Assembly (NCBI RefSeq): GCF_003955715.1
Contig: NZ_CP034463.1
Location: forward strand, 5,022,001 to 5,086,000
Direction of reading: 5' to 3'
DNA: 64,000 nucleotides
Source of the DNA: Streptomyces aquilus
GTDB lineage: Bacteria; Actinomycetota; Actinomycetes; Streptomycetales; Streptomycetaceae
The position numbers and the translations under genes are program-made. Positions 1-38,363 of the stretch are shown here, piece after piece (position 1 is the first letter of the stretch; each line of letters begins with the position of its first letter). The notes beneath the pieces are model-generated. The model saw only the letters and a list, made by a program, of their open reading frames with translations. It had not been told where the DNA came from and made no database searches.

Positions 1-1545
1 GCCACGCGGCGGCCCGGTCCAGGGCGCGGCGGCTGAGGGAGCCGTACCGGTCCTGGACGGCCGGCGCGCCCGGCTCGCGGGCCGCGGCCTCGGCGAGCGC
101 CGGGAGCACGGTGCCGTCCGGGACCCTGGCCGCGCCGCGGTTCCAGTCCTCGGTCAGCTGCCGCCGCTCCGACTCGCCGAGCAGGATGTCGAGCTGGCTC
201 AGCCGCAGTTCCGGCTCGGCCGCCACCTGTCCGAGGAGCCGGAGCAGGCGCCGTACGAGAGCGACGGCGGTGGCCCGGTCGAACAGCTCCTCGGCGTAGT
301 CCAGGCTGCCGTCGAGGCCGTCGGGCCCGCCGTCGTCCCGGTGCCGGTCGGTCAGCCGTACCGTCAGATCGAACCCGGACGCCGGGGTGCCGAGGCCGAC
401 GAGCGAGGCGTCCAGCCCCGGGACCGCCGGGACGTCCCACTTCGCCGCGGTGTCGTCCCGGACGTCCAGGACCACCTGGACCAGCGGATGCGGGTCACCG
501 GGTGCGGCGTCCGCGACCCCCAGGGCCTCGGCGATCCGCGCGAACGGCACGTCCCGGGACCGCTCCGCCTCCTCGGTGGTCTCCCGGACCCGGCCGAGCA
601 TCTCCCGGAACGTCGGGTCGCCCGAGACATCGGTGCGCAGCGGCAGCAGCCCGGCGAACGGGCCCATGACGGCCTCGAGTTCGCCCTCGCCCGTGGGCCG
701 CGGCGCCACCGCGCCGACCACCAGGTCGGTGCCGGCGCCCATCCGGGCGAGCAGCATCGCCAGCCCGGCGTGCACCACGGCGACCGAGGTCACGCCGAGC
801 GTCTGGGCCGTCTCCATCAGCCGGACGTGCACCGGGGCCGGCACCCGCAGCGGCACCGCGCCGGTCCGCCGGGCGGGCCGCGCGGATCGCGGCCGGTCCA
901 CGGGAAGCGTGATCGCGGCCGGCGCGTCCGCCAGCGCCTCCTTCCAGTACGCGAGCTGATCACCGGCCACGCTCTCCGCCGTCTCCGCGTCGGAGTCCGC
1001 GTCCGCGTCCGCGAGCAGCCGGCTCTCCCAGACCGCGTAGTCGGCGAACTGGAGTGGCAGGGGTGCCCGTTCCGGAGCGCGGCCCTCCCAGCGTGCGCCG
1101 TACGCCACGGAGACATCGCGCACGAGAGCGTCACGGGACGCGTCGTCGCCACCGATCCGGTGCAGTACGAGAAGCAGGGCATGGTCGGTGTCGGAGAGCT
1201 GGACCAGCGTGGCGGCCCAGGGGGTTTCGCTCGCGAGGTCGAACCGGCGGGCGGCACCGGCGGCCAGTACGGCCGGCAGCTCCCGCTCGGTCGCCGTGAC
1301 GACCGGGAGTTCCGGGCGGGCCGCGGGGTCGTCGGCGTCCAGGATCCGCTGGACCAGCTCCCCGTCCGCGGTCTCGGCGAACACCGTCCGCAGGATGGCG
1401 TGCCGTGCGGCCACGTCCGCCAGCGCCGCCCGCAGCGCGTCCCGGTCGAGTTCCCCGCGCAGCCGCAGGGCGACGGACGACTGAAGGGCCCGCGTCCCCG
1501 GATCGGCCGCGGCCCGCCGCCAGACGAACCGCTGTCCGGCCGTCG
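1..1545 (-). other. Module 11: C-like domain with HRxxxDD active-site motif, followed by A-domain start
   Basis: The domain after the module 10 carrier reads HRIGGDD (bases 1162-1142) where a condensation domain has HHxxxDG, so the catalytic second His is Arg. Its first core motif is also degenerate: [10 protein letters not shown] replaces the [12 protein letters not shown] of the other modules. It still has full C-domain length and ends in the usual DWN linker, and the A domain then starts near base 150 with an aberrant [10 protein letters not shown] where siblings have [11 protein letters not shown]. From memory, HRxxxDD is the signature of the glycopeptide X domain, which recruits P450s and does not condense. 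An X-like role is inference. A degenerate inactive C domain is the alternative. Confidence 0.75.
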
Positions 1546-4500
1546 CCGGCGCCTCGCCCCCCTCGTGGTCGGCCGGCAGCAGCGAGGGACGCGACTTGGT
1601 GCCCAGGATGCGTGCCGCGCCAATCGGCGTCGGATCACCGAAGAACTGCTTCAGGTTCAGCTCCGCCCCGATCTCCGACCGCACCCGGCCCGCGAGGTGC
1701 ATCGCCAGCGCCGAATTGCCGCCCAGATCGAAGAAGTTGCCGTCGGCGGCCACCCGGTCGACGCCCAGCACCCCGGCGAACAGGGTGCACAGCAGCGCCT
1801 CGGTCGCGTTCCGGGGCAGGAGACCCGAGCCGTCGCTCTCCGGGTCGGGGACGGGCAGCGCGGCCCGGTCGACCTTGCCGTTGACCGTCAGCGGCAGCGC
1901 GTCGAGGACGACCACGGCCGAGGGGACCATGTAGTCCGGGAGCCGCGTCGCCGCGAACTCCCGCAACCTCGCGGGCTCAGGGGCCGCGGTCGCGGGGTCC
2001 TCCGGGAGGACGTACCCGACGATGCGCGGCCGGCCCGGGCGGTCCTCACGCACGACCGCGATGGCCGTCTTCACCTCCGGATGCGCGGCCAACGCGGCCT
2101 CGACCTCGCCGAGTTCGACCCGGAAGCCACGGATCTTGACCTGCTCGTCGGCACGACCGACGAAGGCCAGCTGCCCGTCAGCCGTCCAACGGGCCAGGTC
2201 ACCGGAGCGGTACATCCGGCCACCGTCACCGAAGGGGCAGGCCACGAACCGCTCCGCCGTCAGATCGGGACGGTTGACATAACCGCGCGCCAGGCCGTCT
2301 CCCGCGATATAGAGCTCGCCTGTCACACCCACCGGGACGGGACGGAGAGAGGCATCGAGGACGTAGGTGCGGACATTCCCCAGGGGGCGGCCGATGGCGG
2401 GCGGGGCGTCCTCGCCCGTGATGCCGGCCTCCAGCAGTACGGCGGTGGTGATGACGGTCGCTTCAGTGGGGCCGTAGGTGTTCCAAACCCGCGCACCCTC
2501 ACGCCACTTGGCCGCCAGACCGGCCTCCAACCGCTCAGCGCCCAACACCCAGTTACCGATCCCGGACACCATCTCCGGCTCCAGCGCGCCGAGGAGAGAG
2601 GGCACCACACTCGCGGTGCTCACTCCGGCCGCCTCGATCATGCGCGCCAGCGCCGCCGCGTCCAGCCGTTCGTCGGCCGAGGCGATCGCCAACGTGCCCC
2701 CGGCAGCGAGGGTGACCGCCACGTCCAGCACGGCCGCGTCGAAGCTGAACGACGCGAATTGCAGGGCTGTGACGCCCGGTTCGACCCCGAGGACCGAACG
2801 CATCACCGACGCCAGGTTGGCCACCGAGGCATGCGCCACGGCCACGCCCTTCGGACGCCCCGTCGACCCCGACGTATAGATGACATAGGCCAGTTGATCG
2901 CCACCGACCTCCGGCAGCACACCGACGTCACTGCCCAACTCGTCCAGCAGAACGGTGTCGACCTCCGCGGACAGACGGTCCGCGGTCTCGGCCGTCACCA
3001 GCACCAGCTCGGCGTCGCTGTCGGCGGCCATGAACACCAGCCGCTCAGACGGGTATTCGGGGTCCAGCGGGACGTACGCGCCACCGGCCTTCCACACCGC
3101 CAGCATCGCCACGACCGCCTCCGCCCCACGCGGCAGGCACAGGCCGACCCGGGACTCCCGGCCCACACCGCGCGCCACCAGCCCACGCGCCAGCGCATCC
3201 GAGCGCGCATCCACCTCGGCGTAGGACAGCCCCTGCCCGCCAGACCACAGCGCGACCGTCTCCGGCGCCCTGGCCGCACCGGCGCGGAACCGCTCCAGCA
3301 CGGTCGACGTGTCCACCTGCTGGTCAGAGGCGTTCCAGCCCTCGACGACCGCGGAGCGCTCACCCTCCTCCAGTACCTCCACGGCGCTCAGCCGCAGCTG
3401 CGGATCGGCCGCGACCTGCTCCAGCACCCGCACCAGCCGCCCGGCCAGCGCACGGACCGTCGCCTCGTCGAACAGATCGGCCGCGTACAGGATCCCGCCG
3501 CCCATACCGGCCGGGACTCCCTGCTCGGACCACCGCTCTCCCAGAGAGAAGGAGAGGTCGAAGCGGGCCGCGGGGTCCTCCGCCGGCGGGATCTGCTCGA
3601 CCGTCAGCCCTTCGAGGTCCCACTGCGCCTCGGGCACGTTCTGGAGGGCCAGCATCACCTGGAACAGCGGGCTGCGGGCCGCCGAGCGGGTCGGGTTCAG
3701 CTCGTCGACGAGCTTGTCGAACGGCACGTCCTGATAGGCGTACGCCGAGAGGTCGGTCTCCCGGACGCGCGCCAGCAGATCCCCGAAGGTGGGGTCACCG
3801 GACGCGTCGGAGCGCAGGACAAGGGTGTTGACGAAGAACCCGGCCAGCCCCTCCAGTTGCAGATCCGAGCGCCCCGCGACCGGGGTGCCGACGCAGACGT
3901 CCTCCCCGGCACCCATCCGGGCCAGCAGCACCACCAGCGCCGCGTGCACGACCATGAACATCGTCGCCCCGCCCCGCGCGGCCAGCTCCGTCAGCCGGGC
4001 ATGCGTCTCCGCGTCCACCCGCACCGGCACCTGACCGCTGCGGAACGACGGCATCGCCGGACGCGGCCGGTCGAACGGCAGCACCGTCTCCTGCGGCGCG
4101 CCCTCCAACACCCGGCGCCAGTAAGCGATCTGCCCCGCTCCGGCGCTCTCCGGGTCGTCCAGCTCGCCGAGCACCTCGCGCTGCCACAGCGCGTAGTCCG
4201 CGTACTGGACGGGGAGCGGCTCCCATCCCGGTTCGGCACCCGAAAGCCGTGCGCGATAGGCGGCCTGGAGGTCGTTCGCCAGCACGCCCATCGACCAGCC
4301 GTCGGAGGCGATGTGGTGGGCCACCAGCAGCAGGCCCCATTCGGTCTCGGAGATCCTCAGGAGGGAGGCCCGCCACGGCAGGTCGACCCGTACGTCGAAG
4401 CCGCGCCCGATCTCCTCCTGCATCAGCTCGTGCCAGCGTTCGCCGGCCTCGACCACCACCAGCTCGGGACGCCCTTCGGCGCCCTCGCGGATCTCCTGGT

Positions 4501-7500
4501 ACGGCACCCCCTCCACGTCCGGGAAGACCGTGCGCAGGCTCTCGTGCCGGTCGGCGATGTCCCACAGCGCCGCCCGCAGGGCCTCGGTGTCGACGGTGCC
4601 GGTCAGGCGCAGCGCGAAGGGGAGGTTGTAGGCGGATGCCCCGGCCCCGTCGGTCTCGGCGCCCTCGATGCGGTTGAGGAACCACATCCGCTGCTGGGCG
4701 AAGGACAGGGGTACGCGCTCGGGGCGTTCCCGGCGCGAAAGCATCACGCCCGCCGACGCCCCGGCGGTGTCGACCAGCCGCGCGACACCGGCCACGGTCG
4801 GCTCGGCGAACACCTCACGGACCCCGACCGACGCCTCCAGCACCGAGCGGATGCGGGCGATCAGCCGCATCACCTTCAGCGAGTCACCGCCCAGCTCGAA
4901 GAAACTCTCCTCCGCACCGACGCTCTCCAATTCCAGCACCTCGGCGAACAGAGCGGCCAGCGCCTCCTCGGTCGGAGTCGCAGGCGCACGGCCACCGTCC
5001 ACCGCGCGCTCCGGCTCGGGCAGCGCGGCACGGTCGATCTTGCCGTTGACGGTCAGCGGCAGGGCGTCGAGCAGCACGAGGGCGGACGGCACCATGTAGT
5101 CGGGCAGCCGGCCGGCGGCGAACTCCCGTACCGCGTCCGTCCGCGGCTCACGCCCGGCCGCGGGCAGCACGTACCCGATCAGCCGTTCGTCGCGTACGAC
5201 CGCGATGGCCGTCCTCACCTCCGGGTGGGCGGCCAACGCGGCCTCCACCTCGCCGAGTTCGACCCGGAAGCCACGGATCTTCACCTGCTCGTCGACGCGG
5301 CCCACGAACTCCAGTCGCCCGTCGGCCATCCAGCGCGCCAGGTCGCCGGTGCGGTACATCCGGCCGCCGTCCGCATCGAACGGGCACGCCACGAACCGCT
5401 CCGCCGTCAGGTCGGGGCGTCCGATGTAACCGCGGGCCAGTCCGTCGCCGGCGATGTACAGCTCGCCGGCGACCCCTACCGGCACCGGCCGCAGATAGGC
5501 GTCCAGGACATGGGTCCGGACGTTCTCCAGGGGGCGTCCGATGGGCGGCGGCGCGTCCTGGGCGGTGAGGCCCTTCGGCAGCAGCGTCGCCGTGGTGATG
5601 ACGGTGGCCTCGGTCGGGCCGTAGGTGTTCCACACCCTGGACCGCGCCCGCCACTTGGCGGCCAGACCGGCCTCCAGCCGCTCGGCGCCCAGCACCCAGG
5701 TGCCGATCCCGGCGACCGCCTCCGGCTCCAGCACCCCGAGCAGCGACGGGACGACGCTCGCGACCTCGACCCCGCAGGTCTCCACCAGTTCGGCCAGGGC
5801 GGCGGGGTCCAGCCGCTCCTCGGCCGACGCGATGGTCAACGTACCGCCGGCGGCGAGCGTGACTGCGACGTCCAGGACGGACGCGTCGAAGCTGAACGAC
5901 GCGAACTGCAAGGCCGTCACCCCCGGTTCGACGCCCAGCACCGGACGCATGGCGGTGGCCAGGTTCGCCACCGGGGCGTGCGCCACGGCGACACCCTTCG
6001 GGCGGCCCGTCGAACCCGACGTATAGATGACGTACGCCAGCTGGTCGGCACCGACCTCCGGCAAGTCACCGGAGCCGTCCGCGAGTTCGTCGAGGCGGAC
6101 GGTGGCGATGTCCTCCGGCAGCCGGTCGGCGGTCTCGTCCGAGACCAGCACCAGCTGCGCCGCGCTGTCGGTCACCATGTAGGCCAGCCGGTCGGAGGGG
6201 TACTCCGGGTCCAGCGGCACGTACGCGCCACCGGCCTTCCACACCGCCAGGATCGCCACGACCATCTCGGCCCCGCGCGGCAGGCACAGGCCAACCCGGG
6301 ACTCCGCGCCCACGCCCCGCGCCACCAGCCCACGCGCCAGCGCATCCGACCGCGCTTCCACGTCCGCGTAGGTCAGCGACCGGTCGAGGGAGCGCAGCGC
6401 CACCGCCGTCGGCGTCAGCGCGGCCCACTCGCGGAACCGTTCCACGACCGTGCTGACGTCGTCCGCGTCGCGGGCCGTGGCGTTCCACTCCGCCACGACC
6501 GTGGCCCGCTCGGCCTCGTCCAGCACCTCCACGGCGCTCAGCCGCAGTTCCGGATCGGCCGCGACCTGCTCCAGCACCCGGGCGAGCCGCTCGGCCAGCC
6601 GGCGCACGGTCTCCTCGTCGAACAGGTCGGCCGCGAACAGGATGCCGCCACGCATGCCCTCCGGCTCGCCCGCGGCGGTGTGGAACTCGTTCAGCGCCAC
6701 CGACAGGTCGAAGCGTGCGGCCGGATCGGACGCGGGCGGTATCTCCTCGACCGCCAGCCCCTGGAGATCCCACTGCGCCTTCGGCACGTTCTGGAGCGCC
6801 AGCATCACCTGGAACAGCGGGTTGCGGGCGGCGGAACGCGCCACGCCCAGCTCGTCGACCAGCCGCTCGAACGGCACGTCCTGGTGCGCGTACGCCGAGA
6901 GGTCGGTCTCCCTGATCCGCGCCAGCAGATCCCCGAAGGTGGGGTCACCGGACGCGTCGGAGCGCAGGACAAGGGTGTTGACGAAGAACCCGGCCAGCCC
7001 CTCCAACTGCACATCGGACCGCCCCGCGACCGGCGTACCGACGCAGACGTCCTCCCCCGCGCCCATCCGGGCCAGCAGCACCACCAGCGCGGCGTGCACG
7101 ACCATGAACATCGTCGTCCCGCCCCGCGCGGCCAGCTCCGTCAGCCGGGCATGCGTCTCCGCGTCCACCCCGACCGGCACCGACCCACTGCGGATCGACG
7201 GCGCCGCCGGACGCGGCCGGTCGAAGGGCAGCACCGTCTCCTGCGGCGCCCCCTCCAGCACCCCCCGCCAGTACTCGATCTGCGCGGACCCCGCACCCGT
7301 CCCGTCGTCGTCCAAGTCGCCCAGCACCTCCCGCTGCCACAGCGCGTAATCGGCGTACTGCACGGGGAGCGGCTCCCACTCCGGCGCCGCCCCGCCAAGA
7401 CGGGCGCGATAGGCGCCCTGAAGGTCGCGGGCGAGGACGCCCATCGACCAGGCGTCGGTCGCGATGTGATGCGCGACCAGCAGCAGCACCCAGTCCGCGT

Positions 7501-10500
7501 CGGAGACCTTCAGCAGAGTGGTCCGCCACGGCAGATCAGCCCGGACGTCGAAGCCACGCTCGGCCTCCTCCCGCATGAGCGCGCGCCAGCGTTCGCCGGC
7601 TTCGATGACCTGGAGCTGGGGGCGGCCTGCGGCTCCCTCGCGGATCTCCTGGTACGGCACGCCCTCGATGTCCGGGAAGACGGTGCGCAGGGTCTCGTGC
7701 CGGTCGGCGATGTCTCCCAGCGCCGCCCGCAGGGCCTCGGTGTCGAGGGTGCCGGTCAGGCGCAGCGCGAAGGGCATGTTGTAGGCGGACGCCCCGGTCT
7801 CGTCCATCCGGTTCAGGAACCACATCCGCTGCTGGGCGAAGGACAGCGGTACGCGCTCGGGGCGTTCCCGGCGGGCCAGCACGACGCCGGTCGACGCGGC
7901 GGCGGTGTCGACCAGCCGCGCGACACCGGCCACGGTCGGGTCCGCGAAGACCTCCCGGACTCCGACCGACACCTCCAGCACGGAACGGACACGGGCGATC
8001 AGCCGCATCACCTTCAGCGAGTCGCCGCCGAGCTCGAAGAAGCTCTCCTCCGCACCGACGCTCTCCAGGTCCAGCACCTCGGCGAACAGAGCGGCCAGCG
8101 CCTCCTCGGTCGGAGTCGCAGGCGCACGACCGCCGCTCGCGCCGAGGTCGGGGGCGGGGAGGGCGGCACGGTTGATCTTGCCGTTGGCAGTGAGCGGGAA
8201 GGCGTCCAGGACGACGACCGTCGACGGGACCATGTACTCCGGCAGCCGGATGGCCGCGCTCGCCCGTACGTTCTCGGCGTCCGCGTCCCCGACGACATAG
8301 CCGACCAGACGGCCGTCCCGGACCAGTGCCACGGCTCGCTCGACCTGTGGGTGGGCGGCGAGTACGGCCTCGACCTCGCCGAGTTCGACCCGGAAGCCAC
8401 GGATCTTGACCTGCTCGTCGGCACGACCGACGAAGGCCAGCTGCCCGTCTGGCGTCCAGCGGGCCAGGTCGCCGGTACGGTACATCCGGCCACCGTCCGC
8501 ATCGAACGGGCAGGCGATGAAGCGTTCCGCCGTCAAGTCCGGGCGGTTGACATAACCCCGGGCCAGACCGTCCCCCGCGATGTACAGCTCACCCGTCACA
8601 CCCACGGGCACAGGGCGGAGGAAGGCATCCAGCACGTAGGTGCGGACGTTCCCGAGAGGGCGGCCGATGGCGGGCGGGGCGTCCTCGCCCGTGATGCCCG
8701 CCTCCAGCAGTACGGCGGTGGTGATGACGGTCGCCTCGGTGGGCCCGTAGGTGTTCCAAACCCGGGCACCCTCACGCCACTTGGCCGCCAGGCCGGCCTC
8801 CAGCCGCTCAGCGCCCAGCACCCAGTTGCCGATCCCGGAGACCGTGTCCGGCTCCAGCGCGCCGAGGAGGGAAGGCACGACGCTGGCCGTGTTCACTCCG
8901 GCCGCCTCGATCATGCGTGCCAGCGCCGCCGCGTCCAGCCGCTCTTCGGCCGAGGCAATCGCCAACGTGCCCCCGGCGGCCAGCGTGACGGCCACGTCCA
9001 GCACCGCCGCGTCGAAGCTGAACGACGCGAACTGCAACGCCGTGACACCCGGCTCGACGCCGAGCACGGGACGCATCACCGACGCCAGGTTGGCCACGGA
9101 AGCGTGCGCCACGGCCACACCCTTTGGACGCCCCGTCGACCCCGACGTATAGATGACATAGGCCAGTTGGTCGGCAGTGACCTTCGGCAGATCGCCGACG
9201 TCACTGCCCAACTCGTCCAGCAGAACGGTGTCGACCTCCGCGGACAGGCGGTCCGCGGTCTCGGCCGTCACCAGCACCAGCTCGGCGTCACTGTCCGCGG
9301 CCATGAACACCAGCCGCTCAGACGGGTATTCGGGGTCCAGCGGGACGTACGCCCCACCGGCCTTCCACACCGCAAGCATCCCCACGACCGCCTCCGCCCC
9401 GCGCGGCAAGCACAGCCCCACCCGGGACTCCCGCCCCACACCGCGCGCCACCAGCCCACGCGCCAGCGCATCGGAGCGGGCGTCGACCTCGGCGTACGAC
9501 CAGGCCCGGCCTTCCGCCCACAGTGCGGCTGCCTCGGGTGTCCTGGCCGCACCGGCACGGAAACGCTCCAGCACAGTCGAGGTGTCGACCTCGCTCGCCG
9601 TGGCGTTCCACTGCTCCACGACCGCCGCCCGCTCGGACTCCTCCAGCACCTCTACGGCGCTCAGCCGCAGCTCCGGATCGGCCGCGACCTGCTCCAGCAC
9701 CCGCACCAGCCGTTCCGCGAGCCGGCCGACCGTCTGCTCGTCGAACAGATCGGCGGCGTAGAGGATCGCGCCCCGCAGACCATCGACCGAGCCGTTGTCC
9801 GAGCGGCGCTCGCTCAGCGTCAGGGAGAGGTCGAAGCGGGCCGGGGGGTCCTCCGCCGGCGGGATCTGCTCGACGCTCAGCCCTTCCAGTTCCCAGTGCG
9901 CCTCGGGCACGTTCTGGAGGGCCAGCATCACCTGGAACAGCGGATTGCGGGCGGCGGAACGGGCCGGGTTCAGCTCGTCGACGAGCCGCTCGAACGGCAC
10001 GTCCTGGTGCGCGTACGCGGAGAGGTCGGTCTCCCTGATCCGCGCCAGCAGATCCCCGAAGGTGGGGTCACCGGACGCGTCGGAGCGGAGGACAAGGGTG
10101 TTGACGAAGAAGCCAGCCAGGTCCTCCAGTTGGGAGTCGGAGCGCCCGGCGACCGGGGTGCCGACGCAGATGTCCTCTCCGGCGCCCATCCGGGCCAGCA
10201 GCACCACCAGCGCGGCGTGCACGACCATGAACATCGTCGCGCCGCCCTGCGCGGCCAGGTCGGCAAGTCGGGCGTGCGTCTGCGTGTCGACGTCCAGCGG
10301 AACCGACCCACTACGGAACGACGGCACCGCCGGACGCGGCCGGTCGAACGGCAGCACCGTCTCCTGCGGCGCCCCCTCCAACGCCCGTCGCCAGTGGGCG
10401 ATCTGTCCCGCCCCCGCGCTGTCGGGGTCGTCCAGCTCGCCGAGCACCTCGCGCTGCCACAGCGCGTAGTCCGCGTACTGCACGGGGAGCGGCTCCCACT

Positions 10501-13500
10501 CCGGGGCCGCCCCGGCAAGGCGGGCGCGATAGGCGCCCTGGACGTCGCGGGCGAGGACGCCCATCGACCAGGCGTCGGAGGCGATGTGGTGAGCCACCAG
10601 CAGCAGCACCCAGTCCGAGTCGGAGACCTTCAGCAGCGTGGTCCGCCACGGCAGCTCGACCGCCAGATCGAAGCAGCGCTCGGCCTCGCCCCGCATGGCG
10701 TCCCGCCACTGCTCGCCGGCTTCGATGACCTGGAGCTGGGGGCGGCCTGCGGCTCCCTCGCGGATCTCCTGGTACGGCACGCCCTCGATGTCCGGGAAGA
10801 CCGTGCGCAGGCTCTCGTGCCGGTCGGCGATGTCCCACAGCGCCGCTTGGAGGGCCTCGGTGTCGAGGGTGCCGGTCAGGCGGAGGGCGAAGGGCATGTT
10901 GTAGGCGGAGGCCCCGGTCTCGTCCATGCGGTTGAGGAACCACATCCGCTGCTGGGCAAAGGACAGCGGTACACGCTCGGGGCGCTCCCGGCGGGCCAGC
11001 ACGACGCCGGTCGACGCGGCGGCGGTGTCGACCAGCCATGCGATCCCGGCGACCGTGGGCTCGGCGAACACCTCCCGGACCCCGACCGACACCTCCAGCA
11101 CCGAGCGGATGCGGGCGATCAGCCGCATCACCTTCAGCGAGTCACCGCCCAGCTCGAAGAAACTCTCCTCCGCACCGACCCGCTCCAAGTCCAGCACCTC
11201 GGCGAACAGAGCGGCCAGCGCCTCCTCGGTCGGAGTCGCGGGCCCGCGAGATGCACTGACGTGCACATCCGGTACCGGCAGGGCAGCGCGGTCGACCTTG
11301 CCGTTGACGGTCAGCGGCAGGGCGTCGAGCACGATGACCGTCGACGGGACCATGTAGTCCGGCAGCCGGGTGGCGGCGAAGGCACGGAGGTCGTCCGCGT
11401 CGGTGGCGCCGACGGCGTAGCCGATCAGACGGCCGTCGCGGATCTGTGCCGCGGATTGGTCGACGTGCGGGTGGGCGGCGAGTACGGCTTCGACCTCGCC
11501 GAGTTCGACCCGGAAGCCACGGATCTTGACCTGCTCGTCGGCACGGCCCACGAAGGCCAACTGCCCGTCCGCTTCCCAGCGGGCCAGGTCGCCGGTGCGG
11601 TACATCCGGCCGCCGTCCGCATCGAACGGGCAGGCGATGAAGCGTTCCGCCGTCAGGTCCGGGCGGTTGACGTAACCGCGGGCCAGGCCGTCCCCGGCGA
11701 TGTACAGCTCACCCGTCACGCCCACCGGGACGGGACGGAGGAAAGCGTCGAGGACGTAGGTGCGGACATTCCCCAGGGGGCGGCCGATGGCGGGCGGGGC
11801 GTCCTCGCCCGTGATGCCCTCGTCCAGCAGTACGGCGGTGGTGATGACGGTCGCCTCGGTGGGCCCGTAGGTGTTCCAAACCCGGCCACCTTCACGCCAC
11901 TTGGCCGCCAGGCCAGCCTCCAGCCGCTCAGCGCCCAGCACCCAGTTCCCGACCCCGGGAACCGCCCCCGGGTCCAGCACCCCCAGCAGCGACGGCACCA
12001 CACTGGCCGTGGTCACGCCGGCCGCCTGGAGCATCTCGGCCAGGGCGGCGGGGTCCAGCCGCTCCTCGGCCGAGGCGATCGCCAACGTGCCCCCGGCGGC
12101 CAGCGTGACGGCCACGTCCAGCACCGCCGCGTCGAAGCTGAACGACGCGAACTGCAACGCCGTGACACCCGGCTCGACGCCGAGGACCGGACGCATCACG
12201 GAGGCCAGATTCGCCACCGAGGCATGCGCGACAGCCACACCCTTCGGACGCCCCGTCGACCCCGACGTATAGACGACATAGGCCAGTTGATCGTCGGTGA
12301 CCTCCGGCAGCACGCCGGCATCACTCACCAACTCATCCAGCAGCACACCCGAGGCCACCCGCCCGGCAGTCTCCTCCGTGACCAGCACCAGCTGCGCCGC
12401 GCTGTCGGTCACCATGTAGGCCAGCCGGTCGGAGGGGTACTCCGGGTCCAGCGGGACGTACGCGCCACCGGCCTTCCACACCGCGAGCATCGCCACGACC
12501 GCCTCCGCCCCGCGCGGCAGGCACAGGCCTACCCGGGACTCCCGGCCCACACCGCGCGCCACGAGCCCTCGCGCCAACGCATCGGAGCGGGCGTCGACCT
12601 CGGCGTACGACAGCCCCCGGCCGCCAGACCACAGCGCGACCGTCTCCGGCGCCCTGGCCGCACCGGCGCGGAACCGCTCCAGCACAGTCGAGGTGTCGAC
12701 CTCGCTCGCCGTGGCGTTCCACTCGTCCACGACCGCCGCCCGCTCGGACTCCTCCAGCAGATCGAGGTCGCTCAGTCGCAGCTCCGGATCAGCCGCGACC
12801 TGCTCCAGCACCCGCACCAGCCGCCGGGCCAGCGCACGGACCGTGGCCTCGTCGAACAGGTCGGCCGCGTAGAGGATGCCGCCCCGCAGACCATCGGCCG
12901 TGCCGCCCTCCGACCGGCGCTCGCTCAGCGAGAGGGACAGATCGAAGCGGGCCGCGAGGTCCTCTGCGTGAGGAACCTGCTCGACCGCCAGTCCTTCGAG
13001 GTCCCAGTGCGGCTCGGGCACGTTCTGGAGGGCCAGCATCACCTGGAACAGCGGGTTGCGGGCCGCCGACCGCTCCGGGTTCAGCTCGTCCACCAGCCGC
13101 TCGAACGGCACGTCCTGATGCGCGTACGCCGAAAGGTCGGACTCCCGCACTCGGGCCAGCAGATCCCGGAAGGACGGATTCCCCGCCAAGTCGGAGCGCA
13201 GGACGAGGGTGTTGACGAAGAGGCCTGCCAGTTCCTCCAGTTGTGCGTCGGAGCGGCCGGCAACCGGGGTGCCGACGCAGATGTCCTCCCCCGCTCCCAT
13301 CCGCGACAGCAGTACCGACAGCGCCGCGTGCACGACCATGAACATCGTCGCCCCGCCCCGCGCGGCCAGCTCCGTCAGCTGGGCATGCGTCTCCGCATCC
13401 ACCCCGACCGGCACCTGAGCACCGCGGAACGAAGGTGCCGCCGGACGCGGCCGGTCGAACGGCAGGGCCGTCTCCTGGGGCGCACCCTCCAACGCGCCAC

Positions 13501-16500
13501 GCCAGTAGGCGATCTGTCCGGCACCGGGGCTCTCCGGGTCGTCCAGCTCGCCCAGCACCTCGCGCTGCCACAGCGCGTAGTCCGCGTACTGGACGGGAAG
13601 CGGTTCCCATCCCGGTTCGGCACCTGACAGCCGTGCGCGATAGGCGTTCTGGAGGTCGTTCGCGAGTACGCCCATCGACCAGGCGTCGGTCGCGATGTGA
13701 TGGGCGACCAGGAGCAGCACCCACTCCGCCTCCGAGACCTTCAACAGGGACGTCCGCCACGGCAGTTCAGCCGCCAGGTCGAATCCACGTCCCGCCTCGT
13801 TCTCCATGGCGGCGCGCCACTGCTCGCCGGCCTCCACGACCACCAGCTCCGGACGCCCCTCGGCGCCTTCACGGATCTCCTGATACGGCACGCCCTCCAC
13901 GTCCGGGAAGACCGTCCGCAGGCTCTCGTGCCGGTCCGCCACATCACCCAGTGCCGACTCCAGCACGTCGACGTCGAGGCTGCCGGTCAGGCGGAGGGCG
14001 AAGGGCATGTTGTAGGCGGACGCCCCGGTCTCGTCCATCCGGTTGAGGAACCACATCCGCTGCTGGGCGAAGGACAGCGGTACGCGGTCGGGGCGCTCCC
14101 GGCGCGAAAGCATCGGGCCTGCCGACGCCCCGGCTGTGTCGACCAGCCGCGCGATCCCCGCGACCGTCGGCTCCGCGAAGACCTCACGAACGCCGACCGA
14201 CACCTCCAGCGCCGACCGCACACGGGCGATCAGCCGCATCACCAGCAGCGAATCACCACCCAGCTCGAAGAAGCTCTCCTCCGCGCCGACCCGCTCCAGG
14301 CCCAGCACCTCGGCGAACAGCCCGCACAGCGCCTCCTCCGTCGGAGTCGCAGGCCCACGAGATACCCCGGCGCCCAGATCCGGCACCGGCAGAGCAGCCC
14401 GGTCGACCTTGCCATTCACGGTCAGCGGGAAGGCGTCCAGGACGACGACCGCCGACGGCACCAGGTAATCCGGTACGCGAGCGGCAGCGAATGCGCGCAG
14501 AGCGGTGGCATCCGTGTCGCCGACGACGTATGCGATCAGCCGTCCGTCGCGGACCAGCGCAACCGCCTGCTCAACCCCCGCATGAGCCGACAGAACCGCC
14601 TCGACCTCGCCCAGCTCCACCCGGAACCCACGGATCTTCACCTGCTCATCCGCACGCCCCAAAAACTCCAACTGCCCATCCGCCAACCACCGCACCACAT
14701 CCCCCGTGCGATACATCCGGCCACCATCACCACCGAACGGACACGCCACAAACCGCCCCGCCGTCAGACCAGCACGCCCCGCATACCCACGCGCCAACCC
14801 AATACCGGACACATACAACTCACCACGCACCCCCACCGGCACCGGCTGCAAAAACGCATCCAGCACAAACACCCCGGCATTCCGCAACGGACGCCCAATC
14901 GGCACCACCCCCGACCCACCCACCACACCCGACTCCAACGGCCCACTCATCGCCGCACACACCGTCACCTCAGTCGGCCCATACGCATTCACCATCCGCC
15001 GACCAGACGACCACCGCTCCACCAACCCCGCAGCACACGCCTCCCCCGCCACCACCAACGTCTCCAACCCCGCCGGCAACACCCCCTCCTCCACCGCCAA
15101 CACACCCGGCGGCACCGTCACATGCGACGCCCCCGACCGCACCAACGCCTCACCCAACGACACCCGCGGCGGCAACCCATCCGACCCCGCCACCACCAAC
15201 ACCGCACCCGCACCCCACGCCATGCACAACTCAGACACCGCCGCGTCAAAACTCAACGACGCAAACTGCAACACCCGAGCACCCACACCCACCGCAAACC
15301 GCTCAATCTGCGCACCCGCCAAATTCACCAACCCCGCATGCGACACCACCACACCCTTCGGCCGCCCCGTCGAACCCGACGTGTAGATGACGTAGGCGAG
15401 CTGGTCAGGGGAGATAGCCGGCAGTTCGCGCACGGCCTGGTCGCCGTCCAGCTCGTCGAGCAGGACCGTCTCCACCTCACCGGACAGCCGGTCGGCGGTT
15501 TCGGGCGCGACCAGGACCAGTTCGGCGTCGCTGTCGGCGACCATGTAGGCCAGCCGGTCGGAGGGGTACGCGGGATCGAGCGGGACATACGCCCCGCCGG
15601 CCTTCCACACGGCCAGGATCGCGATGACCGCATCGATCCCGCGCGGGAAGCACAGGCCGACCCGGGACTCCCGTCCCACACCGCGCGCCGCCAGCCCGCG
15701 CGCCAACACGTCGGCTCGGGCGTCGAGTTCGGCGTAGGACAGGGTCTGATCCTCGGAGCACAGGGCGTCCGCATCCGGCGTGCGCGCCACCCACCCCTGG
15801 AACAGCTCCATCACGGTCGCGGCTTCGGCGTCGTCACTCGCGGTGGCGTTCCACCGCTCTACGACCGTCGCCCGCTCGCCCTCCTCCAGCACCTCCACGG
15901 CGCCCAGCCGCAGCTCCGGATCGGTCGCGACCTGCTCCAGCACCCGCACCAGTCGCCCGGCCAGCCCACGCACCGTCCCCTCGTCGAACAGGTCGGCCGC
16001 GTAGAGAATCCCGCCCCGCAGACCATCGACCGAGCCGTTGTCAGAGCGGCGCTCGCTCAGCGAGAGGGACAGATCGAAGCGGGCCGGCGGATCCGCCAGC
16101 GGCGGGATCTGCTCGACGACCAGCCCTTCGAGGTCCCAGAGGGCCTCGGGCACGTTCTGGAGCGCGAGCAGCACCTGGAACAGCGGGTTGCGTGCGGCGG
16201 AACGCTCCGGATTCACCTCGTCCACCAGCCGCTCGAACGGCACGTCCTGATGCGCGTACGCCGACAAGTCGGCCGCCCGCACCCGCGCCAACAGCTCGCC
16301 GAACGTGGGATTCCCCGAGGCGTCCGACCGCAGAACGAGCGTATTGACGAAGAACCCGGCCAGATCCTCCAGTTGCGAGTCCGAACGGCCCGCGACCGGC
16401 GTCCCGACGCAGACGTCCTCCCCGGCCCCCATCCTCGCCAGCAGCATCACCAGCGCCGCGTGCACGACCATGAACATGGTCGCCCCGCTCCGCGCGGCCA

Positions 16501-19500
16501 GATCGGCCAACCGGGCATGCGTCACCGCATCGACGTCCACCGGCACCGACCCACTACGGAACGACGGCACCGCCGGACGCGGCCGGTCGAAGGGCAGCAC
16601 GGTCTCCTGCGGCGCCTCCGCCAACTCCCGCTTCCAGTACGCGACCTGGGCGGACACCTGACTGTCGGGGTCGTCCAACTCGCCGAGCACCTCGCGCTGC
16701 CACAGCGCGTAATCCGCGTACTGGACGGGGAGCGGCTCCCGCGCCTGCGCCGCCCCGGCAAGGCGGGCGCGATAGGCGCCCTGAAGGTCGCGGGCGAGTA
16801 CGCCCATCGACCAGGCGTCAGTCGCGATGTGATGGGCGACCAGCAGCAGCACCCACTCCGCCTCCGAGACCCTCAACAGCGTGGTACGCCACGGCAGTTC
16901 AACCGCCAGATCGAAGCCACGCCCGGCCTCGTCCGCCACCAGCTCACGCCACCGCTCACCGGCGTCGACGATCCGGAGCCGGGGACGCCCCTCGGCGCCC
17001 TCGCGGATCTCCTGGTAAGGCACCCCGTCCACGTCCGGGAAGACCGTGCGCAGACTCTCGTGCCGATCGGCGATGTCCCACAGCGCCGACTCCAGCACCT
17101 CGACATCGAGGCTGCCGGTCAGCCGCAGAGCGAAGGGAAGGTTGTAGGCAGCGGCTCCCTCCGCGCCCTCTCCGTCCATCCGGTTGAGGAACCACATCCG
17201 CTGCTGGGCGAAGGACAGCGGTACGCGCTCGGGGCGCTCCCGACGGGCCAGCACCACACCCGCCGTGGCCCCGGCGCCCTCGACCAACCGTGCGACACCG
17301 GCCACGGTCGGGTCCGCGAAGACCTCCCGGACTCCGACCGACACCTCCAGCACCGAGCGAATACGGGCGATCAGCCGCATGACCAGCAGCGAATCACCGC
17401 CGAGCTCGAAGAAACTCTCCTCCGCACCGACCCGCTCCAGGTCCAGCACCTCGGCGAACAGAGCGGCCAGCACCTCCTCGGTCGGAGTCGCAGGCTCACG
17501 CGATGCACCGGCGCCCAGATCCGGCACCGGCAGGGCGGTGCGGTCGATCTTGCCGTTCACGGTGAGCGGGAAGGCGTCCAGGGCGACGACCGCCGACGGG
17601 ACCATGTACTCCGGCAGCCGGGTCGCGGCATACGCCCGTACGTCCTCGGCGTCCACATCCCCCACGACATAGCCGACCAGACGGCCGTCGCGTGCGACAG
17701 CCAGGGCCCGCTCGACCTGCGGGTGGGCGGCGAGTACGGCCTCGACCTCGCCGAGCTCGACGCGGAAGCCACGGATCTTGACCTGCTCGTCGGCACGGCC
17801 CACGAAGGCCAGCTGCCCGTCTGGCATCCAGCGGGCCAGGTCGCCGGTACGGTACATCCGCCCGCCGTCCGCATCGAACGGGCAGGCGATGAAGCGTTCC
17901 GCGGTCAGGTCGGGGCGGTTGACGTAGCCGCGCGCCAGGCCGTCCCCGGCGATGTACAGCTCACCTGTCACACCCACGGGCACAGGGCGGAGGAAGGCAT
18001 CCAGCACGTAGGTGCGGACGTTCCCGAGAGGGCGGCCGATGGCGGGCGGGGCGTCCTCGCCCGTGATGCCGGCCTCCAGGAGGACGGCGGTGGTGATGAC
18101 GGTCGCCTCGGTGGGCCCGTAGGTGTTCCAAACCCGGGCCCCTTCGCGCCACTTGGTCGCCAGGCCGGCCTCCAGGCGCTCAGCGCCCAGCACCCAGTTC
18201 CCGATCCCGGAGACCGTGTCCGGCTCCAGCGCGCCGAGGAGGGAAGGCACGACGCTGGCCGTGGTCACTCCGGCCGCCTCGATCATGCGCGCCAGCGCCG
18301 CCGCGTCCAGCCGTTCGTCGGACGAGGCGATCGCCAACGTGCCCCCGGCAGCGAGGGTGACCGCCACGTCCAGCACGGCCGCGTCGAAACTGAACGACGC
18401 GAATTGCAGGGCTGTGACGCCCGGTTCGACCCCGAGGACCGGACGCATCACCGACGCCAGGTTGGCCACCGAGGCATGCGCCACGGCCACGCCCTTCGGA
18501 CGCCCCGTCGACCCCGACGTATAGATGACATAGGCCAGTTGGTCGGGGCCGACCTCCGGCAGCACACCGGAATCACTCACCAACTCATCCAGCAGCACAC
18601 CGGAGGCCACCCGCCCGGCGGTCTCGGCTGTCACCAGCACCACCCCGGCCCCGCTGTCCGCGACCATGAACTCAAGCCGCTCAGACGGGTATTCGGAGTC
18701 CAGGGGCACGTACGCGCCACCGGCCTTCCACACCGCCAGAATCGCCACAACCATCTCGGCCCCACGCGGCAGGCACAGCCCCACCCGCGACTCCCGCCCC
18801 ACACCACGCGCCACCAACCCACGCGCCAACGCATCCGAGCGCGCATCCACCTCGGCATACGACAGGCCCCGGCCGCCCGACCACACCGCGACCGTCTCCG
18901 GCGCCCTGTCCACGCTGGTACGGAACCGCTCCACCACCGACGACGCATCCACCTCCCGCGCCGTCGCGTTCCACTCCCCCACCACCGCGTCCCGCTCGGA
19001 GGCGTCCAGCAGATCGAGGTCGCTCAGCCGCAGCTCCGGATCGGCCGCGACCTGCTCCAGCACTCGCTCCAGTCGCACGGCGAGCCCACGCACCGTTGCC
19101 TCGTCGAACAGATCCGCGGCATACAGCAGCCCGCCCTCCAGCCCGGCCGGGGCGCCACCCTCGGTCCACCGCTCACCGAGGCCCACCGACAGATCGAAGC
19201 GGGCGGGTGCCATCGCCGGCGGTATCTGCTCGACGGTCAGCCCCTCAAGCCCCCACTGCGCCTCGGGCACGTTCTGGAGGGCCAGCATCACCTGGAACAG
19301 CGGGTTGCGGGCCGCGGAACGCTCCGGGTTCAGCTCGTCGACGAGCCGCTCGAACGGCACGTCCTGATGCGCGTACGCCGACAGATCGGCCTCCCGCACC
19401 CGCGCCAACAGCTCACCGAACGTCGGATTCCCGGAAGCATCGGACCGCAGAACGAGCGTGTTGACGAAGAACCCGGCCAGATCCTCCAGCTGCGCGTCCG

Positions 19501-22500
19501 AGCGCCCGGCAACGGGTGTGCCGACACAGACGTCCGCCCCGGCCCCCATCCTCGCCATCAGCACCGCCAACGCGGCATGCACGACCATGAACATGGTCGC
19601 CCCGCCCTGCCCGGCCAGCTCCACCAACCGGGCATGCGTCTCCGCATCCACCTCGACCGGCACCGACCCACTCCGGAACGTCGGCACCGCCGGACGCGAA
19701 CGATCGAAGGGCAGCACCGTCTCCTGCGGCGCACCCTCCAACGCCCCCCGCCAGAAGGCGATCTGTCCCGCCACCGCACTCGACGGGTCCTCCAACTCGC
19801 CCAGCACCTCACGCTGCCACAGCGCGTAATCCGCGTACTGCACCGGCAACGGCGTCCACCCCGGGGTGCCCTCTCCTGCGAGACGGGCGCGATAGGCGTC
19901 CCGGAGATCGCCTGCTATCACGCCCATCGACCAGGCGTCGGTCGCGATGTGGTGGGCCACCAGGAGCAGCACCCACTCCGCCTCCGAGACCTTCAGCAGC
20001 GTGGTACGCCATGGCAGGTCGATCCCGACGTCGAAACCACGGCCGATCTCGTCCCGCATCAGCTCACGCCACCGCTCGCCGGCCTCGACCACCACCAGCT
20101 CCGGACGGCTGTCCGCACCCACCAGCACCCGCTGGTACGGCACACCCTCGATGTCCGGGAAGACCGTGCGCAGCGTCTCGTGCCGGTCGGCGATGTCCCC
20201 CAGCGCCGCCTGCAAGGCCTCGGTGTCAAGGGTGCCGCTCAGCCGCAGCACCAACGGCAGGTTGTAGACGGACGCCCCGGTCTCGTCCATCCGGTTGAGG
20301 AACCACATCCGCTGCTGCGCGAAGGACAGCGGTACGCGGTCGGGACGTTCCCGACGCGAAAGCACGACGCCGGTCGACGCCCCGGCCGTGTCGACCAGCC
20401 GCGCGATCCCCGCGACCGTCGGCTCCGCGAAGACCTCACGGACCCCGACCGACACCTCCAGCACCGACCGCACACGGGCGATCAGCCGCATCACCAGCAG
20501 CGAATCACCACCCAGCTCGAAGAAACTCTCCTCCGCACCCACGCTCTCCAGCCCGAGCAGATCCGCGAACAGCCCGCAGAGCGCCTCCTCGACCTCCGTC
20601 TCGGGCCCACGGGAAGCACCCGCACCCAGATCCGGCACCGGCAGAGCAGCCCGGTCCACCTTCCCGTTCACCGTCAACGGCAGCGCGTCCAGCACCACCA
20701 CAGCCGACGGCACCATGTAGTCCGGCAGCCGCGTCGCCGCATGCGCCCGCACCGCGTCCTCGTCCACATCGCCGACGACATAGCCGATCAGCCGCGCATC
20801 CCGTACGACAGCCACGGCCTGCTCGACCTGCGGGTGAGCGGCGAGGACGGCCTCGACCTCACCCAGCTCGACGCGGAAGCCACGGATCTTGACCTGCTCG
20901 TCGGCACGGCCCACGAACTCAAGCTGCCCGTCCGGCGTCCAGCGGGCCAGGTCGCCGGTGCGGTACATCCGGCCGCCGTCCGCGTCGAACGGGCAGGCGA
21001 TGAAGCGTTCCGCTGTCAGGTCGGGGCGGTTGACGTAACCCCGGGCCAGACCGTCCCCGGCGATGTAGAGCTCGCCGGGGACGCCCACGGGCACAGGGCG
21101 GAGGAAGCCGTCCAGCACGTAGGTGTGGACGTTCCCGAGGGGCCGGCCGATGGCGGGCGCGGGGTCGTGGCCCGTGATGCCCTCGTCCAGCAGTACGGCG
21201 GTAGTGATGACGGTCGCCTCGGTGGGCCCGTAGGTGTTCCAAACCCGTGCTTCTTCACGCCACTTGGCGGCCAGACCGGCCTCCAGCCGCTCGGCACCCA
21301 GCACCCAGTTCCCGATCCCCGGCACCGCGTCCGGCTCCAGCACACCCAGCAGCGAGGGCACCACACTCGCGACGTCAACACCCGCCGCCTCCACCATCCC
21401 GGCCAGGGCAGCAGAGTCCAGCCGCTCTTCGGCCGAGGCGATCGCCAGCGTGCCCCCGGCGGCCAGCGTGACGGCCACGTCCAGCACCGCCGCGTCGAAG
21501 CTGAACGACGCGAATTGCAGGGCTGTGACGCCCGGCTCGACGCCGAGCACGGGGCGCATCACGGAGGCCAGGTTGGCCACCGAGGCATGCGCGACGGCCA
21601 CACCCTTCGGACGCCCCGTCGACCCCGACGTATAGATGACATAGGCCAGTTGATCGCCACCAACCTCCGGCAGCGCACCGACGTCACTCACCAACTCATC
21701 CAGCAGCACACCCGCGGACAGCCGGTCGACAGTCTCCTCCGTGACCAGCACCACCCCGGCCCCACTGTCCGCGACCATGAACTCAAGTCGCTCAGACGGG
21801 TATTCGGGGTCCAGCGGGACGTACGCGCCACCGGCCTTCCACACCGCCAGCATCGCCACGACCATCTCGGCCCCACGCGGCAGGCACAGCCCCACCCGCG
21901 ACTCCGCCCCCACCCCCCGCGCCACAAGCCCTCGCGCCAGCGCATCCGAGCGCGCATCCACCTCGGCGTAGGACAGCCCCTGCCCACCCGACCACAGCGC
22001 GACCGCCCCCGGAGCCTCAGCCACCCACCCCCGGAACCGCTCCACCACCAAACCGGGCTCAGTCACCTCAGCCGTCGCGTTCCACTCCTCGACGACCGCC
22101 GCCCGCTCGGCCTCCTCCAGCAGGTCGAGGTCGCTCAGCCGCAGCTCCGGATCGGCCGCGACCTGCTCCAGCACCCGCACCAGCCGCCCGGCCAGCCCAC
22201 GCACCGTCGCCTCATCGAACAGATCCGCGGCATAAAGAAGCCCACCGCCCAGCCCAGCCGGGGCGCCACCCTCGGCCCACCGCTCGCTGAGGTCCACCGA
22301 CAGATCGAACCGTGCCGCGGGGTCCTCCACCGGCGGCACCTGCTCCACCCACAGCCCTTGCAGCTCCCACCGCGCCTCGGGCGCGTTCTGGAGGGCCAGC
22401 ATCACCTGGAACAGCGGGTTGCGGGCAGCGGAGCGCTCCGGGTTCAGCTCATCCACCAGCCGCTCGAACGGCACGTCCTGATGCGCGTACGCCGAAAGGT

Positions 22501-25500
22501 CAGACTCCCGCACCCGCGCCAACAGCTCACCGAACGTCGGATTCCCGGAAGCGTCCGACCGCAGAACGAGCGTATTGACGAAGAACCCCGCCAGATCCTC
22601 CAACTGAGCGTCCGAACGGCCCGCGACCGGCGTCCCGACACAGACGTCCTCACCCGCGCCCATCCTCGCCAGCAGCACCGCCAGGGCCGCGTGCACGACC
22701 ATGAACATCGTCGCGCCGCCCCGCGCGGCCAGTTCCACCAACCGGGCATGCGTCTCCGCGTCCACCCCGACCGGCACCGACCCACTACGGAACGTCGGCA
22801 CCGCCGGACGCGAACGATCGAAGGGCAACACCGTCTCCTGCGGAGCCCCCTCCAACGCCCCCCGCCAGTAAGCGATCTGCCCCGCCGCCGCACTCGACGG
22901 GTCCTCCAACTCGCCCAGCACCTCACGCTGCCACAGCGCGTAATCCGCGTACTGCACCGGCAACGGCGTCCACCCTGGAGCCTCCCCGGCAAGCCGTGCG
23001 CGATAGGCGTTCTGGAGGTCGTTCGCGAGTACGCCCATCGACCAGGCGTCGGTCGCGATGTGATGGGCGACCAGGAGCAGCACCCACTCCGCGTCGGAGA
23101 CCTTCAACAGGGTCGTCCGCCATGGCAGTTCAGCCGCCAGGTCGAATCCACGCCCCGCCTCGTCCTGCATGACGTCACGCCACTGCTCGCCGGCCTCCAC
23201 GACCATCAGCTCCGGACGCCCCTCGGCGCCCTGACGGATCTCCTGGTACGGCACGCCCTCCACGTCGGGGAACACCGTCCGCAGGCTCTCGTGCCGATCG
23301 GCGATGTCGCCCAATGCCGCCGCCAGTGCCGCCGAGTCCAGCCGGCCGGACAGCCGTAGGGCGAACGGCATGTTGTAGGCGGCCGCCCCCGCCTCGTCCA
23401 TCCGGTTCAGGAACCACATCCGCTGCTGCGCGAAGGACAACGGCACCCGCTCCGGCCGCTCCCGCCGCCCCAGCACCACACCTGCCGACGCCCCGGCTGT
23501 GTCGACCAGCCGCGCGATCCCGGCGACCGTCGGGTCCGCGAAGACCTCACGAACGCCGACCGACACCTCCAGCACCGACCGCACACGGGCGATCAGCCGC
23601 ATCACCAGCAGCGAATCACCACCCAGCTCAATGAAGCTCTCCTCCGCACCGACCCGCTCCAGGCCCAGCACCTCGGCGAACAGCCCGCACAGCACCTCCT
23701 CCGTCGGAGTCGCAGGCCCACGAGACGCACCCGCGCCCAGATCCGGCACCGGCAGAGCAGCCCGGTCCACCTTCCCGTTCACCGTCAGGGGGAACGCGTC
23801 CAGCACCACCACAGCCGAAGGCACCATGTACTCGGGCAGCCGGGCGGCGGCGTGCGTCCGCAGCTCTCCACTGTCCACGTCGCCGACGACGTAGCCGATC
23901 AACCGTCCGTCCCGTACGACGGCCACGGCCTGCTCAACCCCCGCATGAGCCGACAGAACCGCCTCGACCTCGCCCAGCTCCACCCGGAACCCACGGATCT
24001 TCACCTGCTCATCCGCACGCCCCAAAAACTCCAACTGCCCATCCGCCAACCACCGCACCACATCCCCCGTGCGATACATCCGGCCCCCGCCCTCACCGAA
24101 CGGACACGCCACAAACCGCCCCGCCGTCAGACCAGCACGCCCCGCATACCCACGCGCCAACCCAATACCGGACACATACAACTCACCACGCACCCCCACC
24201 GGCACCGGCTGCAAAAACGCATCCAGCACAAACACCCCGGCATTCCGCAACGGACGCCCAATCGGCACCACCCCCGACCCACCCACCACACCCGACTCCA
24301 ACGGCCCACTCATCGCCGCACACACCGTCACCTCAGTCGGCCCATACGCATTCACCATCCGCCGACCAGACGACCACCGCTCCACCAACCCCGCAGCACA
24401 CACCTCCCCCGCCACCACCAACGTCTCCAACCCCGCCGGCAACACCCCCTCCTCCACCGCCAACACACCCGGCGGCACCGTCACATGCGACGCCCCCGAC
24501 CGCACCAACGCCTCACCCAACGACACCCGCGGCGGCAACCCATCCGACCCCGCCACCACCAACACCGCACCCGCACCCCACGCCATGCACAACTCAGACA
24601 CCGCCGCGTCAAAACTCAACGACGCAAACTGCAACACCCGAGCACCCACACCCACCGCAAACCGCTCAATCTGCGCACCCGCCAAATTCACCAACCCCGC
24701 ATGCGACACCACCACACCCTTCGGCCGCCCCGTCGAACCCGACGTGTGGATGACGTACGCGGCGTTGGCGGGACGCAGGGGTGCCGTGCGTTCGGCGTCG
24801 GTCACCCGGCCCGGGGCCTGGCGGGCCACCGCTGCCCTGACCTGCGGGTCGTCGAGGGCGATCGCGCGGTCCCGGGCGGCCTCGGGCAGCACGGCGCGTC
24901 CGGCCTCGGTGCACAGCACCGCGACCGGGTCGGCGTCCTCCAGGACGAGGGCGAGCCGGTCGGCGGGGTGCCCGGGGTCGAGGGGGACGAAGGCCCCGCC
25001 CGCCATCGAGACGGCGAGGAGCGCGACCACGGTGTCCGCGGAGCGTTCGGCGACGACGGCGACGCGGCACTCGGGTCCCACTCCCAGGGTGATCAGGTGC
25101 CGTGCCAGGCGGCCCGCTTCGTCCTGCAGTTCGGCGTAGCCGTACGTCCGCTCGTCCGAGTCCAGGGCCGGCGCGTCCGGTGTCCGCCGCACCTGTCCGG
25201 CGAGCAGTTCGGGCAGCGTCCCGGTGGGCACCTCGGGCTGGATGTCCTGCCAGTCCCGGGTGACACGGGCCAGCTCGGCACCGGTCAGCAGTCCGAGGCG
25301 GGCCAGCGGGGTGCGCGGGTCGGCCGCGAAGCCTTCGAGTACCTGGTGGAGCGCGGCCAGCACCTGTTCGGCGCGGGCCCGGTCGAACAGGTCCGTGCGG
25401 TGGTCGAGTTGCAGCTCCAGCCGCTCGCCGGGGCCGACGATCAGACCGAGCGGGTAGTGGCTGGCGTCCCTCGTGCGGCCGTCGAAGCGGATGCTGAGGG

Positions 25501-38239: not shown

Positions 38240-38363
38240 CATTCCCCCTACGAGACACGCGCCACGGACCCCAGGCTGCCCCACCCCCGGTCACAGCCGG
38301 GTTACCACCTTCACAGGCTGGCGCACGGCCCCCCGCGCCGCAACAACGCTCCTCGGCCGGGCG

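Follow-up and report, generated by a model that had tools for sequence, protein, structure and literature searches.

The condensation (C)-like domain encoded at 149..1558 on the minus strand of a 64-kb window of Streptomyces aquilus DNA (positions 5,022,001 to 5,086,000 of contig NZ_CP034463.1; the host genome is 10.4 Mb in a single contig) is, from its sequence, a genuine member of the X-domain family of glycopeptide antibiotic (GPA) synthetases. Very probably it is catalytically dead and would recruit a cytochrome P450 that cross-links a carrier-bound peptide before release by a thioesterase (TE). The X domain itself is of a known kind; the nonribosomal peptide synthetase (NRPS) system that houses it looks new, with ten modules predicted to load eight 3,5-dihydroxyphenylglycine (Dpg) and two Tyr residues, a complete DpgABCD set, one Oxy-type P450 on the OxyA/OxyE side of the P450 tree, and no OxyB/OxyC found. 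All coordinates are given for the 64-kb window, with negative values counting bases to its left, and every feature listed with such coordinates lies on the minus strand.

The line is encoded by two genes, NRPS A (26774..36040; 3088 residues; modules 1 and 2) and NRPS B (-1759..26602, of which 1..26602 lies in the window; 9453 residues; modules 3-10, X, a remnant of an adenylation (A) domain, and TE), over which ten A domains with an A3 motif were counted. At the C-terminus of NRPS B, the carrier (T) domain of module 10 (1604..1831; LGGNS within NFFDLGGNS, residue 8289), the last carrier of the line, is followed by X, by the A remnant (-922..148, of which 1..148 lies in the window; 357 residues) and by TE (-1756..-923; GWSFG motif). 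X thus stands after the last carrier and before the TE, with the remnant between them. The initial annotation, made from the window alone, had described a C-like domain with HRIGGDD at its active site directly after the module 10 carrier, and both the motif (1142-1162; residues 8481-8487 of NRPS B) and the order were located as described. It had also placed a further A domain, of a module 11, downstream, in an arrangement unfamiliar to it. An A-like stretch does intervene, but it lacks the tested core motifs and a carrier and is followed by TE, so that the order carrier, X, TE is that of GPA synthetases and the remnant layout is one known from complestatin since 2007. The TE and the remnant nature of the stretch had been missed because the gene leaves the window at its left edge.

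In comparisons with PDB entries, the domain matched the X domains of teicoplanin (4tx2; 370.7 bits, E 1e-109) and kistamicin (6m7l; 362.5 bits) best, and the best non-X C domain reached 278.7 bits. Identity was 48% to each of these X domains versus 45-46% to the LCL domains of the same protein and is therefore indecisive by itself. Phylogenies were calculated at two levels. In a quick tree of 82 rows, DCL rows included, the domain fell within the X clade with a support of 100. In a careful tree of 75 rows, built with closer LCL domains, omitting 12 of the classic X loci and the majority of the DCL/E rows and with L051 entered as L189, the X clade was supported at 100/100, and the neighbours of the domain were L046, L045, L044, L042 and L043, followed by X domains of S. 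griseoviridis and S. pseudovenezuelae. Forcing the X domains of the window family to group with the LCL domains of their own lines cost 190 log units (approximately unbiased (AU) test, p 1.2e-5, an optimistic value as the group was picked after a first tree was known). At 11 columns separating 33 other X domains from 35 LCL rows, the window domain carried the X-typical residue in 10 and LCL rows in 0-2; these counts lean towards X, as the X loci were found with two peptide patterns, one of which includes an X-typical Phe. The motif HRIGGDD conforms to HRxxxDD/E and replaces the HHxxxDG of LCL domains; of the 28 X domains aligned, 26 had HR and two had HP, and Arg occupied that position in none of the 35 LCL rows. 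The phylogeny of C, E and X domains called for by the initial annotation accordingly sets the domain outside the LCL domains, with no firm clustering among them, and its reading of the HRxxxDD domain as an X domain is borne out by clade, PDB matches and diagnostic residues. Convergent acquisition of HRxxxDD in a dying module was considered and is rejected by the tree, the AU test and the diagnostic residues.

Relatives were sought by a scan of 84,980 species genomes, from which the best 80 of 103 confirmed loci were kept; 55 of those 80 were examined for domain layout, and the P450 flanks were read in all 46 X loci (L042-L087). Five loci (L042-L046) encode X domains 76-95% identical to that of the window, and the closest X-domain relatives are from Streptomyces; among 391 other genomes drawn from the genus there was no match above 57% identity. 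The ratios of nonsynonymous to synonymous substitution rates (dN/dS) of the window versus L043, L045 and L046 were 0.20, 0.29 and 0.44 for X (purifying selection), 0.40, 0.42 and 0.37 for the A remnant (with gaps of 24, 58 and 14 codons), 0.21, 0.36 and 0.74 for TE, and 0.09, 0.24 and 0.43 for the P450 described below. X is kept, less tightly than an active C domain, and the A remnant gathers gaps yet is under some constraint.

The remnant retains an A6-like stretch and an A7-like stretch (LMLRTG). No A2, A3, A5, A8, A10 or carrier pattern was matched in the stretch after X, and with the A-core and carrier patterns missing a functional A domain at this position is ruled out. From the end of X to the TE-start motif, 373 residues were counted in the window system, and distances of 359-451 residues were found in 17 of 47 systems (the window and L042-L087), including the corbomycin locus L048; L058 is an eighteenth long-remnant case by the position of its GxSxG motif. 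Shorter distances were 115-123 residues in 16 classic loci, 46-51 in three kistamicin-type loci (51 in L069), 70 in L087 and 183 in L052, and the TE-start motif was unmatched in nine loci (L058 among them), because the frame was broken or short or the pattern was missed. The NRPS frames of L042 (after 11416) and L047 (after 11383) end before any TE, 90 and 205 residues past X, respectively, through either a draft-assembly error or a broken gene. For complestatin, the layout of X, A remnant and TE was described by Rausch et al. 2007, with the words 'and only there' in the available part of the paper (PMC1894796), where X is traced to the leading domain of a module since lost. Since the A6-like stretch persists in twelve classic loci, the remnant is wider than stated in that part of the paper. 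Its gradation, from long here and in type V-like loci to ~115-123 residues in classic ones, supports the 2007 view that X was once the C domain of a module now lost, and carries this view beyond complestatin.

A gene for an Oxy-type P450 (-2936..-1767), carrying LPRDDL and the heme motif, starts 7 bases past the stop of NRPS B. The initial annotation had proposed a search for P450 genes to the left of the window, and this one, of the Oxy family and with PRDD, lies there directly downstream of the synthetase; it is the one Oxy gene in the cluster. Its top PDB matches were kistamicin OxyA (6m7l chain A and generically named P450 entries), 'Oxy protein' entries and OxyB entries, some of these identities being presumptive. 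In the I-helix, the Glu of the Oxy pair is retained and Asn stands in place of Gln. A P450 tree of 74 rows drew on 27 of the 46 X loci and, from the host genome, on 8 of the 22 other P450s with matches longer than 280 residues. All Oxy proteins were split at 100 from the 8 other P450s, and the window P450 fell on the side that, from gene order, we take to be OxyA/OxyE (support 98, 39 rows); the presumed OxyB/OxyC side (27 rows) held no member from the window family, L051, L059, L061 or L087. In genome-wide comparisons, the next P450 after the Oxys scored 209 (L043), 173 (L045), 199 (L046), 212 (L051) and 237 (L059) bits, compared with 305-341 bits for the OxyB/OxyC-side proteins of L047, L048, L055 and L058. 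In L042, L043, L045 and L046 alike, X is followed by a single Oxy-type P450, with identities to the window P450 of 98% (L043), 87% (L045) and 78% (L046); none was found in L044, a 3.2 kb contig. Altogether, 42 of the 46 X loci had Oxy-type P450s in the flank read (113 in total, all with PxDD): one in five loci (L042, L043, L045, L046 and L061), two to four in 37, and none in L044, L073, L083 and L086. In other GPAs the PRDD region is central to X-Oxy docking (PMC5238595 and PMC6565677, partial texts). An open reading frame for a ferredoxin (-3247..-2492) adjoins the P450, and in it a repeated TADTAH-like run precedes the ferredoxin domain (L041:4753-5508, minus strand).

Residues were predicted from the A-domain codes, of which two occur. 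Eight modules share DALSVGTVI, and modules 3 and 6 read DASTVAAVC; no Hpg (4-hydroxyphenylglycine) or Trp code was found among the ten A domains. The first code resembles those of corbomycin modules 8 (DGLSVGTVM) and 9 (DALSVGTVM), which load Dpg (PMC7567792, partial text), and the eight modules probably load Dpg as well. The second was also read in the second-last module of L069, the kistamicin locus by identity of its X to 6m7l over 451 residues, and residue 6 of kistamicin is Tyr in the accessible part of PMC6565677. Tyr-coded modules in the same protein, assumed at the outset, are predicted at 3 and 6 on this match, giving the predicted order Dpg-Dpg-Tyr-Dpg-Dpg-Tyr-Dpg-Dpg-Dpg-Dpg. Assignment through the PDB neighbours of the A domains was uninformative, both types matching linear gramicidin synthetase first, and the corbomycin and kistamicin modules were used instead. 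With an Oxy-family P450 adjoining, predicted Tyr at 3 and 6 and probable Dpg elsewhere, the product is likely to be an aromatic peptide cross-linked by the P450.

Further features of the line were seen. The A domains (window 2-36040) are of two very similar types, those of modules 3 and 6 being near identical over the stretch compared, as if homogenised by recombination. The six consecutive LCL domains of modules 4-9 (6491-23443) carry HHIATDA or HHIASDA, the usual Gly being replaced by Ala, and that of module 10 has HHIASDG. By eye, the first C domain of NRPS A is EntF-like (NHLLLDGY). This points to an acyl or aryl starter, for which the annotated genes included no candidate. E-like motifs, identified by motif and spacing only, follow each carrier of NRPS A, and that of module 1 may be inactive.

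In the mechanism that we regard as very probable, the decapeptide made by modules 1-10 would wait on the module 10 carrier while X engages the PRDD helix of the Oxy P450 and positions the enzyme above the carrier-bound peptide. With electrons probably supplied by the neighbouring ferredoxin, the P450 would couple two aromatic side chains, after which the TE would free the peptide. The stretch between X and TE would be the leftover A domain of a lost eleventh module, the C domain of which became X. Several observations weigh against this account. The NRPS frame of L042 stops 90 residues after X; one X-typical residue is altered (T to A at row residue 381); and the module 10 C domain has dN/dS values of 0.13 (L043) and 0.26 (L046), below the 0.20 and 0.44 of X. 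PxDD alone is a weak marker, occurring somewhere in 10 of the 22 other genome P450s, though no first match is PRDD. There is also a single Oxy, with no OxyB/OxyC-type enzyme found in the P450 tree or the genome P450 comparison. That last point bears on a variant in which X does recruit the P450, which then hydroxylates or otherwise oxidises one residue instead of cross-linking two, as no enzyme for the usual first ring was found. This variant is unlikely, though it deserves some weight: the P450 groups with OxyA/OxyE enzymes, makers of aryl links, and keeps the I-helix Glu of the Oxy pair, with Asn for Gln.

X could instead be a functionless, decaying C domain of the lost module 11 whose X-like motif came about by a pair of substitutions (His to Arg and Gly to Asp), each requiring a single base change under the genetic code. 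The A domain after X is indeed clearly a remnant with no carrier pattern behind it. Such an origin is nonetheless very improbable, since the entire domain, beyond the motif, lies in the X clade, a local origin is rejected by the AU test, X is constrained between relatives and an Oxy P450 co-occurs. An unusual active LCL domain with a downstream A domain loading an eleventh residue is the naive reading of the window alone, and 45-46% identity to the LCL domains of the same line would fit it; we give it almost no credence. The A3, A5, A8 and A10 patterns are missing from the A stretch and a carrier pattern from what comes after it, and these absences refute this reading.

The remaining genes of the cluster lie on both sides of the synthetase. 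To the left are MbtH (-7629..-7471), an ABC exporter (-9871..-7736), an aminotransferase (-15727..-14387) and the Dpg pathway, of which DpgA (-16939..-15797), DpgB (-17619..-16933), DpgC (-18917..-17619) and DpgD (-19726..-18914) each passed the NCBI cut-off. A LuxR-type regulator and a 335-residue regulator, taken by size and position for the StrR type, lie between -20 and -7 kb. To the right are a sensor histidine kinase (36262..37584; best NCBIfam match VanS-O at 169 bits, far under the cut-off of 720) and two response regulators (37586..38284 and 38364..39017). PF14696, which we take to be the family of the Hpg-pathway enzyme HmaS, matched at three places in the genome, each distant from the cluster; the matches to the VanX-type peptidase family were distant as well.

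Type V glycopeptides typically contain Hpg and Trp and have two or more cross-links, and feglymycin is a Dpg-containing peptide. Like the GPA X domains of teicoplanin and kistamicin, the window domain has a C-fold sequence, HRxxxDD/E, a place between the last carrier and the TE, and an Oxy P450 with PRDD encoded adjacent; unlike them, it stands in a ten-module line with a long A remnant behind it (373 residues versus 51 in L069 and 115-123 in classic loci), and is 48% identical to them. Complestatin (PMC1894796, partial text) and the corbomycin locus share the order X, A remnant, TE, and corbomycin has Dpg modules with nearly the same code. Corbomycin differs in having nine residues with Hpg and Trp (PMC7567792, partial text), as against ten modules and no Hpg or Trp code, and L048 has three Oxy P450s in the flank read as against one. 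Of the features of type V clusters (drawn partly from the available part of PMC8698665), an NRPS with X and an Oxy P450, the Dpg pathway and a two-component system were all found, and Hpg and Trp codes were not. In the same partial text, type V and feglymycin-like clusters both have a two-component system, as the kinase and response regulators provide here, and feglymycin is described as uncrosslinked, unlike a cluster with X and Oxy.

We tentatively propose, with somewhat less than even confidence, a class between feglymycin and type V GPAs. Its product would be a decapeptide built from eight Dpg and two Tyr residues, lacking both Hpg and Trp and cyclised by a single OxyA/OxyE-side Oxy recruited by X, with no OxyB/OxyC enzyme. 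On this view, the ancestor of X would be an LCL domain of Hpg/Dpg-rich lines of this kind. The proposed origin of X rests on the careful tree, where LCL domains from the line of the window and from lines G111, G021, G106 and G370 are part of the sister group of X. G079, also in that group, has one Hpg-type code among five; the A-code reading covered the LCL lines other than G367 and G382. L188/L193 (G111) and L189 (G021) are related lines that also bear X; they end in successive Dpg-code modules with LCL domains and have three and two Oxy-type P450s, respectively. L190 (G106) and L191 (G370), with LCL domains in the X sister group, combine Hpg-, Dpg- and Tyr-type codes, and neither X nor an Oxy-type P450 occurred in the 20 kb read.

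No description of this cluster was found in the literature searched, which consisted mostly of partial texts and covered few subscription papers. Type V glycopeptides and feglymycin offer an analogy (PMC8698665, partial text) from which one may guess that Dpg-rich decapeptides of this class are candidates for activity directed at autolysins or Mur. In the GPA cascades described in the available part of PMC6565677, OxyB or OxyC acts first, kistamicin OxyA makes an aryl link and kistamicin OxyC is hypothesised to form two links; OxyE makes an aryl link according to PMC5067714 (partial text). With one Oxy and no OxyB/OxyC found, the standard cascade therefore cannot run as such. The line is among the smallest X-bearing systems found (one P450 in the flank read in 5 of 46 X loci, four of the window family and L061) and would make a clean system for studying the way in which docking to X steers a P450. 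Should an OxyA/OxyE-type enzyme indeed cyclise a linear peptide that lacks the first ring, this one-Oxy class would violate the rule assigning that ring to an OxyB- or OxyC-type enzyme, and the accepted order of the GPA cascade would not be universal.
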